DNA from: Candidatus Tyrphobacter aquilonaris
GTDB lineage: Bacteria; Vulcanimicrobiota; Vulcanimicrobiia; Vulcanimicrobiales; Vulcanimicrobiaceae
Length of the DNA: 55,579 bases
NCBI GenBank assembly: GCA_003133745.1
Contig: PKZD01000037.1
Span: 6,437 to 62,015 of the forward strand
Reading direction: 5' to 3'
The notes beneath the pieces were generated by a model, which was given only the letters and a program-made list of their open reading frames with translations, ran no database searches and was not told where the DNA came from. Positions 35,657-38,637 of this stretch are shown here, one piece after another. How positions within the stretch are numbered: the stretch's first letter is position 1; every line of letters begins with the position of its first letter. The translations under genes were made by a program, and so were the position numbers.

Positions 35657-36538
35657 ATGTCTCTCTTCACAGCGAACCTCAACCGTGGCCTACGCGCGCT
35701 CTTCGTCTTCGCGTATGTCTTCGCGCTTTTCGGCGGGCGCGCGCAAGCGCAGCACGTTCTCCCGGTGCTCGGAACCGCGCCGCTCCTCGGTCAGATGAGC
35801 AGCGTCTCGGATCTTCAAGAACGCGTCACGGAACGTCGCGCGATGTTCGAAACCGCGTCGGAGGATCTCGGGCTCACGAGCGCCGAGACCGATCAACTCG
35901 AACAGCGGATCGCCTCTGGACAGGTGCGTTGGGTTCGCGTTCCGCGCCACCTCGACGCGATGACGTGGGCGTGGGACGGCAGCGTCTACATGTACCGCGA
36001 CGTCGAGATTCCCGGAGGCGAGTACGGTTGGGAGATCGATCTGCGGGTCGGCTCGAACATCCACGCGCTCTTCATCCCGGCCGCGTGCGGCAATCTTTCC
36101 CTCGTCGAGCGCAGCGTGCAGGTTTCCTATGCGCCGCCCCCGCCTCCGCCGCCGCAGCAGCCGCAGTGTCCGAACGGCATGATGGGATCGCCGCCGAACT
36201 GTTACACGCCGCAGTGTCCGAACGGCATGATGGGATCACCGCCGAACTGCTACACGCCCGGCTGTCCGAACGGCATGATGGGATCGCCGCCGAACTGCTA
36301 CACGCCCGGTTGTCCGAACGGCACGATGGGAACGCCGCCGAACTGCTACGCTCCTCAGCCGCAAGCCACGGCGCCGCCGTCGCTCACGACGGTAATCGTG
36401 AAGACGGAGGTCAGGGAAACCATCGCGTGGTGGATGATTCCGCTTACGTTCGTCGGCTTTTTCTTCGGCGGACATTTCCACTACAGTCCGCCGCCGCCAC
36501 CGCCGCCGCCGGTTAAGTGCCCGCCAGTAGACCCGTAA
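35657..36538 (+). CDS. Exported proline-rich protein with four CPNG(M/T)MG(S/T)PPNCY repeats
   Basis: A 293-residue protein from ATG 35657, with a strong ribosome-binding site (aAAGGAGtaatc). It has an N-terminal signal (LRALFVFAYVFALFGGRAQA), an unrecognised domain at about 45-160 with alternating helices and strands, a Pro8 run, four tandem 16-residue repeats (about 170-233) each with two Cys, a hydrophobic segment AWWMIPLTFVGFFFGG near 265, and a second polyproline run. Repeat cysteines could form disulfides or bind metal outside the cytoplasm. It is the last gene of the first polysaccharide block; its 3' end overlaps the convergent zinc-protein gene by 26 bp. No known family is recognised. 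Confidence 0.85.
   Translation: MSLFTANLNRGLRALFVFAYVFALFGGRAQAQHVLPVLGTAPLLGQMSSVSDLQERVTERRAMFETASEDLGLTSAETDQLEQRIASGQVRWVRVPRHLDAMTWAWDGSVYMYRDVEIPGGEYGWEIDLRVGSNIHALFIPAACGNLSLVERSVQVSYAPPPPPPPQQPQCPNGMMGSPPNCYTPQCPNGMMGSPPNCYTPGCPNGMMGSPPNCYTPGCPNGTMGTPPNCYAPQPQATAPPSLTTVIVKTEVRETIAWWMIPLTFVGFFFGGHFHYSPPPPPPPPVKCPPVDP
36164..36355 (+). repeat. Four tandem 48-bp repeats inside a coding sequence
   Basis: Units at 36164-36211, 36212-36259, 36260-36307 and 36308-36355, each encoding (Q/G)CPNG(M/T)MG(S/T)PPNCY(T/A)P. The first three differ at only a few positions, the fourth is more diverged, which indicates recent duplication from the 5' side. Confidence 0.95.
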
Positions 36539-36974
36539 CCGGATGCTCGGTGCCCTTGAGTTCGGCACCGCAAATCGAACAACCCCGACGTAGGCGCGCA
36601 TCCACGATCTGCAACCCGACGTGTCCACGGCAACTGCCGTGGCCGTTGGAGCAGGCGAAGGCGGCGCGCCTGCGGCATGGGTGCAGCGAGTCGTAAGCGG
36701 CCGCGCACTCTCCCGGTCGATCCGCGGGCGGCGCGGGGATGTGCGACGGATATTTCGAACGCAGATCGCGCAGATTCACGACGTCGTTGATGTGGCCGTC
36801 TCGCATGCAGACCCGGCAGCGGCGATCGGTCTTGCGTCTGCCGGTCGTCTTGACCGCATGATTTGGACAGAGCGTGTGTAGCTCGCTGCACGCATAGGTT
36901 GCCGGTTGCGCGCAGACTTCGCCGCGCGCGTTGATGGCGCAGCAGGCCAGGCTCTCGACGACGGATTCAGGCAC
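36513..36974 (-). CDS. Small protein with two tandem Cys/His zinc-binding modules
   Basis: A 153-residue protein from GTG 36974. Two modules share almost identical ligand spacing: C12-x8-C21-x7-C29-x3-H33-x2-C36-x2-H39-x13-C53-x2-C56 and C90-x9-C100-x7-C108-x3-H112-x2-C115-x2-H118-x13-C132-x2-C135. Eight ligands per module suggest two zinc ions each, B-box or treble-clef-like. Retention of the pattern in both copies is strong evidence that the frame is real. The function is unknown; nucleic-acid or protein binding is typical for such modules. It converges on the repeat-protein gene. Confidence 0.78.
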   Translation of the reverse strand: MPESVVESLACCAINARGEVCAQPATYACSELHTLCPNHAVKTTGRRKTDRRCRVCMRDGHINDVVNLRDLRSKYPSHIPAPPADRPGECAAAYDSLHPCRRRAAFACSNGHGSCRGHVGLQIVDARLRRGCSICGAELKGTEHPVTGLLAGT

Positions 36975-37233
36975 GAATGATTCACCCCGATGGAAAGTGC
37001 GATCGCTCTTGAGCGAGTGTTACGCCGATTGTAGCCTCTGCTCGCACGATTTTCCTTATCAACGCACTCGGCTTAACGCAAACTTGACCGGGTGTCGACG
37101 CTAGGTCTCCGTAGGTCGAGCGATTCAGGTGCGGGGACCAAAGGTCCCGGTTACGATAGGGCACACCCGGCCGCTCGCATGAGTCTTGGCGGCTCTCGGG
37201 GCGCGCCGGTTGCTCCGCTACGATGATCTATAG
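36975..37233. other. 259-bp intergenic region with hairpin, before the second polysaccharide block
   Basis: Contains TTGACC at 37084-37089 without a good -10 at the right distance, a perfect hairpin GGGACC-AAA-GGTCCC at 37134-37148, and TACGAT 9 bp before the ATG at 37234. On the minus strand TACAAT lies about 60 bp upstream of the zinc-protein start. It probably holds divergent promoters and perhaps a structured leader. The sequence does not match the c-di-GMP riboswitch core. Confidence 0.4.
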
Positions 37234-38637
37234 ATGAACGCCTCGCTTACGCAACCGCGCTCGATCACGCTCGAAGCCGGTCGCCTCGCGGCTGCCGCTC
37301 CCAGTCCCACTCCGCGCGTCTACGCACGGCACTGGCGCGGCATCGTCATGCTCGGCGATGCCGCAGCGCTCGGCGTCGCATTCGCAACCGCGATTCTGCT
37401 CGTTTGGCGGCTCGTCGGTGCACGGCCCAGCATCGGAGCCTGCGCCGTCGCCGCGCTGTTGCTGCTCGCGGGTTTCGCGGCGCACGATCTCCACGAGAAG
37501 ACGTACGCGATCCTTCGTCGCGACGAGTTCTATTACGCGCTCTCGGTAACGCTGCTGACCGGCCTCCTCGTCATTCCGGCATTTCTCCTCACCGACGTGA
37601 CGATGCGAAGCCGCATCGCGGTGGCCGGCGGCATCGTTCTCGCGGGGCTCGCGATCGGCGCGATGCGCTACCTGATCCGCCGAACGATCGGCGAACGCCG
37701 CCTCTTCGTCGAACCGCGCACGGTCGTCGTCGGCGATAACGGCGAAGCGCATAGCGCGGCCGGGCGCATCGAACACGATCGCCGTGCGCACGCGCAGATC
37801 GTCGCCGCGCCGAAGGAGCACGACGCGGAACGCTGGCTCGCGGATCTCTGCAGCGACGTCGCACCGACGCACATCGTCATCGCCGAACCCCTCTCCGGCG
37901 TTCACTTGAATCAACTCGCGCGCGCCGCCGCGCGGCGCGGCATCGTCCTCGCCGTCGCGGCGGAGAGTTACGCCCGTGCCCTCGCGGTCCGTGAACTCGT
38001 GCTCGGTGACGCGACGCTGCTCGAAGTGAGCGTTCCACGGGTCGGATCGGTGTGGGCTCGCCGCGCGAAGCGCTGCTTCGACGTGATCGTCGCTTCGCTC
38101 GTGCTCGCGGCTGCGTCGCCCGTGCTTGCCGTTGCGGCCTGCGCGATCGCCCTGGAAGACGGCGGCTCCATCCTCTATCGGCAGCCACGCGTCGGTCGTG
38201 ACGGCCGCATCTTCGAGATTTTCAAGCTGCGCTCGATGCGCATCGGCGCCGAGGCGCACACCGGTCCCGTCTGGGCCGTCGACGGCGACGCTCGCGTGAC
38301 GCATGTCGGTCGCATTTTGCGCCGCACGAGCATCGACGAGCTGCCGCAACTGCTCAACGTCCTGCGCGGGGAGATGTCGATCGTCGGACCGCGCCCCGAG
38401 CGACCGCTCTTCGTCGAGCGTTTCTCCGCGAGCAACGCACAGTACGTCGAGCGGCTCATGGTCGCACCGGGTCTGACCGCGTGCTCGCATCTCTACATGC
38501 CGCGCAACGTAGAAAGCGACGCGATCGGCGAGCGTCTCGACTACGATCTCTTCTATATTCGGCATTGGTCCCTCGCGATGGACGTCGCGCTGCTTCTGAA
38601 GACCGCCGCCGAAGTCGCCTTCCATCGGGCCGCATGA
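37234..38637 (+). CDS. Undecaprenyl-phosphate sugar-1-phosphate transferase (WcaJ/WbaP type)
   Basis: A 467-residue polyprenyl-phosphate hexose-1-phosphate transferase, the enzyme that starts a polysaccharide repeat unit on the lipid carrier. It has four N-terminal membrane helices, a degenerate Rossmann-like middle (FVEPRTVVVGDN...), then the catalytic domain: KRCFDVIVASLVLAAASPVLAV, FEIFKLRSMRIGAEAH, LRRTSIDELPQLLNVLRGEM, SIVGPRPERPLF and APGLTA. ATG 37234 follows the intergenic region and opens the second polysaccharide block; its stop overlaps the next gene (ATGA). Confidence 0.94.
   Translation: MNASLTQPRSITLEAGRLAAAAPSPTPRVYARHWRGIVMLGDAAALGVAFATAILLVWRLVGARPSIGACAVAALLLLAGFAAHDLHEKTYAILRRDEFYYALSVTLLTGLLVIPAFLLTDVTMRSRIAVAGGIVLAGLAIGAMRYLIRRTIGERRLFVEPRTVVVGDNGEAHSAAGRIEHDRRAHAQIVAAPKEHDAERWLADLCSDVAPTHIVIAEPLSGVHLNQLARAAARRGIVLAVAAESYARALAVRELVLGDATLLEVSVPRVGSVWARRAKRCFDVIVASLVLAAASPVLAVAACAIALEDGGSILYRQPRVGRDGRIFEIFKLRSMRIGAEAHTGPVWAVDGDARVTHVGRILRRTSIDELPQLLNVLRGEMSIVGPRPERPLFVERFSASNAQYVERLMVAPGLTACSHLYMPRNVESDAIGERLDYDLFYIRHWSLAMDVALLLKTAAEVAFHRAA

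Follow-up and report, generated by a model that had tools for sequence, protein, structure and literature searches.

What does a small protein with two sets of metal ligands do in the polysaccharide locus of an uncultured bacterium? The question is raised by a stretch of 55,579 nt from Candidatus Tyrphobacter aquilonaris (assembly GCA_003133745.1, contig PKZD01000037.1, positions 6,437 to 62,015; a genome of 2.28 Mb in 82 contigs), which is called the window here and supplies the coordinates used below. On its minus strand, at 36513..36974, lies a gene for a 153-aa protein with two tandem eight-ligand Cys/His modules. The gene, referred to below as the zinc gene, has a GTG start, a TAA stop and a Shine-Dalgarno-like GGGGTGA upstream. 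It is a real gene under selection, restricted to one genus of uncultured Vulcanimicrobiota (Eremiobacterota), and the protein family is new and genus-restricted, although of a known general kind. The favoured reading, with a probability of roughly 0.4, is that its product depends on zinc to bind DNA and acts as a local regulator of the polysaccharide locus around the gene.

Is the gene real? Long chance frames are many in G+C-rich DNA, so a spurious frame has to be considered. Conservation argues against it: a first survey found one full copy in each of eight out of eight sampled congeneric genomes and none in 52 other relatives. Substitutions are strongly biased toward the third codon position (676/527/1665 at the three positions). 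The proportion of synonymous sites that differ (pS) is 0.51–0.75 (about 0.66), which is near saturation, and the corresponding nonsynonymous proportion (pN) is 0.06–0.22, with pN/pS at 0.11–0.33 (about 0.26). The other reading frames are interrupted in most species, and a spurious frame is highly improbable. The frame proposed in the first-pass annotation thus stands, as a 153-aa, minus-strand frame with the same GTG start and TAA stop that is kept in 8/8 congeners. That annotation had also named two checks on its claim, loss of the frame in relatives and a clear match to a known family. Both were run; the frame is conserved and no clear match was found, so the claim was not refuted.

The metal ligands account for 16 of the 13 Cys and 8 His residues of the protein. 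The ligand core of module 1 (36807..36944, minus strand; G000:C40:43243-43380) runs from C11 to C56 and consists of C11, C21, C29, H33, C36, H39, C53 and C56. That of module 2 (36570..36707, minus strand; G000:C40:43006-43143) runs from C90 to C135 and consists of C90, C100, C108, H112, C115, H118, C132 and C135. Both follow the spacing C-x9-C-x7-C-x3-H-x2-C-x2-H-x13-C-x2-C, at an offset of 79 residues. An earlier description of the first interval as C-x8/9-C is correct as to x9, which holds in both modules, while x8 arose from counting C12 as a ligand. Because C12 is replaced by G in one relative, the eighth species, whereas C11 is invariant, C11 is the ligand and the spacing is x9. All 16 ligands (16/16) are invariant in an alignment of seven species. 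Ligands and spacing are unchanged in the eight genomes even though synonymous sites are near saturation, which upholds the view that selection acts on the metal ligands.

How did the two modules arise? Their identity to each other is 19–24%, and 11 columns are invariant across both modules in all species, namely the eight ligands and A7, A19 and R45 (A4 numbering). All eight Cys/His positions coincide at offset 79, and shuffled sequences reach eight matches in 1 of 50,000 cases (offsets 40 to 109). Since the spacing is exact and the additional residues A7, A19 and R45 are common to both modules in all species, internal duplication is favoured over convergence on the sequence evidence, as the first-pass annotation had suggested. 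The two halves differ in constraint: pN averages 0.048 for module 1 and 0.159 for module 2, against 0.28 for the linker and 0.30 for the tail. Module 1 is the more constrained half of the protein, and its ligand core is the most constrained part. Module 1 also contains a basic segment, VKTTGRR(K/R)TDRRCRVC, that is nearly invariant across species. The protein has an isoelectric point of 8.9 and conserved Arg/Lys segments, and a signal peptide is not apparent.

A concentration of 16 conserved ligands within 153 residues might also be expected if the protein sensed zinc or redox state or stored metal, with the metal itself as the signal. The fixed spacing of each set of eight ligands and the exact duplication look structural instead, and the genes seen next to the zinc gene include none for metal transport or oxidative stress; such a role is improbable.

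How widely is the family distributed? A scan at the DNA level found the exact ligand pattern two times in each of the eight congeneric genomes except G004, which has it three times. It does not occur in 141 other genomes of the phylum, and a reversed control pattern in the same kind of scan gave no occurrences. In 99 genomes of the bacterial family, a profile search turned up only two further credible matches, one additional copy of a module in G004 and a fragment in G007. Across 148 genomes of the phylum, a module profile found the gene itself, the G004 copy and the G007 relic, with all remaining matches at E (expect value) of at least 8.7e-4. The five best of these were rejected, four for want of a C-x2-C/H...C-x2-C/H frame and one as a long, unrelated protein. 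When 84,980 species were scanned for peptide patterns, an approach that reaches close relatives only, the congeners alone matched. Plasmids and phages searched by tblastn contained no relative of the protein, and viral contigs gave no match to the exact ligand pattern or to the A1 peptides. “Genus-restricted” therefore refers to the genomes and collections searched here. Most public records with the gene bear the name Candidatus Eremiobacterota, which corresponds to phylum Vulcanimicrobiota in the taxonomy.

Is the protein related to anything already described? At E up to 10 the whole protein matches nothing in Pfam, NCBIfam or PHROGs, and its sole match in PADLOC is to a homing-endonuclease model (E 0.57). 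Profile searches against the PDB gave no match at E below 0.45. When modules and relatives were scanned singly against Pfam, all matches were sub-threshold, among them ANCHR-like B-box 0.12, zf-HIT 0.17, Zn_ribbon_8 0.51 and Sina RING 0.54. Specifically, B-box models (ANCHR-like PF22586) stayed below the curated cut-off, reaching E 0.12 in 1 of 14 modules and giving no match for the whole window protein or its module 2. The zf-HIT model also stayed below its cut-off, with E no better than 0.17 for single modules and 1.5 for whole proteins. A structural model of the whole protein, built from seven sequences, was too poor to use (predicted local distance difference test score, pLDDT, 45.8). A model of the single module, built from 14 rows (both modules of seven species) and without metal, reached pLDDT 76.6, with 81–88 over residues 11–50. 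A Foldseek search with the module model against the PDB and a viral library gave no match at E<=0.001; the best matches, the zinc insert of methionyl-tRNA synthetase and Thermus ZifS, had E of about 1 or above and were not used. Thus, the earlier statement that no described family has this signature is borne out by Pfam, NCBIfam, PHROGs, PADLOC, the PDB and Foldseek, none of which provided a significant relative.

The earlier suggestion of a B-box or treble-clef resemblance fared less well. A RING-like treble clef combines a zinc knuckle, a primary hairpin and a helix, with a third strand starting at the last ligand, and the commonest B-box ligand order is C-C/H-C-C-C-C-H-H (PMC4506424). The zinc module shares with B-box, RING and ZZ domains its eight Cys/His ligands in about 50 residues, which is compatible with two zinc ions. 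Unlike the commonest B-box, its ligand order is C-C-C-H-C-H-C-C; it also differs from B-box, RING and ZZ domains in having no significant hidden Markov model or fold match, and in a core for which the model predicts no helix. The metal-free model has an all-beta core, and its sole helix lies at residue 60 and beyond. It also has a beta-hairpin (residues 34–39 and 42–47) between C-x2-H and C-x2-C, as is found between the two knuckles of a zinc ribbon. In contrast to zinc ribbons, there are four further ligands ahead of the hairpin, and the Pfam match (Zn_ribbon_8) is the sub-threshold one noted above. The ligand order is superficially RING-like. The classical RING consensus opens with a C-x2-C pair, whereas the first pair here is C-x9-C in both modules and all species. 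A treble-clef resemblance is not established, given sub-threshold Pfam matches only, no Foldseek match and a metal-free module model, of moderate confidence, in which the treble-clef helix does not show. Could the module nonetheless belong, as a strongly diverged member, to one of the known families of binuclear treble clefs (B-box, RING or zf-HIT) and go unrecognised by present models? The sub-threshold matches to the ANCHR-like B-box (0.12), zf-HIT (0.17) and Sina RING (0.54) point that way, as does a ligand order, C-C-C-H-C-H-C-C, that can be superimposed on that of RING. The C-x9-C pair in place of C-x2-C, a model with no helix between the sixth and seventh ligands, and the Foldseek result make this unlikely. 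This question of membership is separate from the ranking of functional readings.

What can be learned from the extra copies? The extra copy in G004 (L053:3780-4400, minus strand, contig C19) contains module 1 only and lies in frame before a PAS-GGDEF-EAL protein, a name that comes from reading the protein's sequence. It keeps 8/8 ligands, under relaxed constraint (pN/pS about 0.25 versus 0.12). Where the window has its GTG start, this copy has GCG at the homologous codon, and there is no in-frame ATG, GTG or TTG ahead of the module. TACAAT and a degenerate form of the conserved box described below lie upstream, and no palindrome was found nearby. A homologue of the PAS-GGDEF-EAL protein in G003 lacks the module. 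The G004 copy may be either a functional fusion or one in decay, and its use as a link to cyclic di-GMP signalling was set aside as weak because of the GCG at the start position and the relaxed constraint. Separately, G007 carries a decayed second copy of the zinc gene (contig C106, L011:1241-1399, plus strand), a 52-aa remnant of module 2.

The G004 arrangement bears on a second possible function, in which the zinc modules form a rigid scaffold, like eukaryotic B-box and RING domains, that joins or regulates polysaccharide enzymes or a cytoplasmic signalling protein. Eight-ligand binuclear domains of the RING and B-box type commonly bind proteins (PMC4506424), an in-frame fusion of module 1 to a PAS-GGDEF-EAL protein is of the type that marks interaction modules, and the zinc gene always lies within the polysaccharide locus. 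However, there is no fold match to RING or B-box domains, the G004 frame has GCG at the homologous start position and none of the usual start codons before the module, and the private cis elements discussed below indicate regulation. An adaptor role has lower odds than regulation.

What surrounds the zinc gene? In relatives with enough sequence, the order is flavin oxidoreductase, polysaccharide deacetylase, membrane protein, CPNG-repeat protein and, on the opposite strand, the zinc gene; beyond it lie a sugar transferase, then a glycosyltransferase and a UDP-sugar dehydrogenase. In every such relative the zinc gene is divergent from the sugar transferase gene and convergent with the CPNG-repeat gene. 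The sugar transferase (37234..38637, plus strand; PF02397, E 3.8e-57), a constant neighbour overlooked in the earlier note, is a bacterial enzyme of the first step of polysaccharide assembly and a candidate target of the proposed regulator. The convergent downstream neighbour (35657..36538, plus strand) encodes a protein with an apparent signal peptide and no Pfam match. It contains tandem CPNGMMGSPPNCYTP repeats, whose number differs among congeners, and a C-terminal hydrophobic segment.

The first-pass annotation had noted the convergence of the zinc gene on this Cys-repeat gene, and the two do overlap by 26 bp in the window, as they do in L013. Since the gene ends lie 1–19 bp apart in L014–L018, the overlap is not a fixed feature. 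The proposed pairing of the two genes holds in part: it is constant within the genus, but CPNG genes exist without the zinc gene in other genera. CPNG-type proteins, with a conserved N-terminal half, are present in 19 of the 45 genera sampled, only one of which has the zinc gene, so the two are not an obligate pair. At 12 loci from other genera, the CPNG gene lacks the window's neighbours within 1.5 kb. The simplest reading of these distributions is that the CPNG gene is the older of the two and the zinc gene was acquired next to it.

Is there evidence for local regulation? The region between the zinc gene and the sugar transferase gene is about 200–260 bp long in all relatives. Its alignment (n=8) contains two blocks that are 71–90% identical between pairs of species, within a spacer that is 34–55% identical; by comparison, about 66% of synonymous sites in the zinc gene differ. 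The block on the side of the zinc gene is a conserved box, GTCAAGTTTGCGTTAAG, also written GTCAAGTTTNNGTTAAG (37072..37088, minus strand), about 38 bp upstream of a −10-like TACAAT. The box is a direct repeat of GTYAAG with an 11-bp period and is private to the locus. In the window it reads GTCAAG-N5-GTTAAG, an exact form found once per genome. An 11-bp direct-repeat period is typical of OmpR/PhoB-type sites. This element, also written TTAAC..CTTGAC, occurs once per genome, at this place only; the G004 form has two differences and is recognised by alignment only. The second block, 63 bp long (37138..37200, plus strand), lies upstream of the sugar transferase promoter and contains a palindrome, GAGTC-N5-GACTC (37181–37195), that is imperfect in the window, with one mismatch. 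The block occurs once per genome, at this place, in 8/8 congeners and has no full match in sampled genomes outside the genus; the palindrome pattern gave two one-mismatch matches in another family. A −10-like TACNAT box lies between the block and the nearby ATG of the sugar transferase gene, and the block looks like an operator. It was also considered as a leader RNA, which was rejected: there was no meaningful Rfam match and no real covariation, and the TACNAT box falls between the block and the start codon.

The TACAAT box of the zinc gene lies 53 nt before the GTG in the window (37028..37033, minus strand) and 6–7 nt before the start codon in seven other species (L003–L009), a layout suggesting leaderless transcripts in seven species of the genus. 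This layout is one of three observations consistent with an RNA- or ribosome-associated zinc protein that acts on translation; the others are that the invariant segment is basic and Arg-rich and that it has weak, non-significant profile similarity to ribosomal proteins S9 and L28. The S9 and L28 matches have E of 0.45 to 1.1 only, and a polysaccharide locus is an atypical place for such a protein. This function appears about as improbable as metal sensing.

The private, single-copy pair of elements beside a divergent gene for a small basic protein suggests the trace expected of a dedicated local regulator, and the presence of the site once per genome favours such a regulator over a global one. 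How might it work? Each module would most likely hold two structural zinc ions, four per protein. After duplication the modules may have diverged in role, with a near-invariant basic segment in module 1 and a looser module 2. The protein, small and probably cytoplasmic, would bind one or both of the intergenic elements. In this way it would control both the sugar transferase, which stands at the first committed step of polysaccharide assembly, and expression of the zinc gene itself. We infer the metal, DNA binding, the target and the sign of regulation: zinc because of the ligand type and the cytoplasmic setting, and the cellular role because of the genomic place. There is a known parallel. 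Among the polysaccharide genes under the control of the Ros/MucR zinc-finger proteins of Alphaproteobacteria is exoY, the gene for the first-step glycosyltransferase (PMC9779718). The proposed likeness is by analogy, a small bacterial zinc-finger protein tied to polysaccharide genes with the promoter of a first-step sugar transferase as its target (exoY there, the divergent gene here). The difference lies in the protein, which has two eight-ligand modules, 16 ligands and other spacing; no Pfam match was found, and a single Cys2His2 site with Ros spacing is not present, so the role would be analogous and the family distinct.

Several points weigh against regulation by DNA binding. First, neither homology nor fold comparison linked the protein to a DNA-binding family. 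Second, neither model has a recognition helix in the module core, at moderate (77) and low (46) confidence. Third, the conserved stretch between the divergent genes could be bound by an unrelated regulator, and degenerate sites of a global one would escape scans for exact patterns. Fourth, the G004 copy lacks the palindrome and a standard start; its sequence neither supports nor excludes DNA binding. Taken together with the evidence above, a DNA-binding regulator ranks first, an adaptor second, and RNA binding and metal or redox sensing lower. A bolder version, in which a new binuclear eight-ligand fold was born and duplicated within one genus and turned into a sequence-specific regulator dedicated to the polysaccharide locus, with private operators, is unlikely.

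What does the finding mean? Taxonomically restricted genes are usually short and featureless. The zinc gene, unlike these, encodes an exactly spaced, duplicated metal-binding architecture under strong selection, and provides a clean case for how zinc domains originate in bacteria. On present evidence the family is of interest to specialists and represents no new kind of system. The private, single-copy promoter elements make a function as local polysaccharide regulator directly testable in vitro, with no need for a cultured host.
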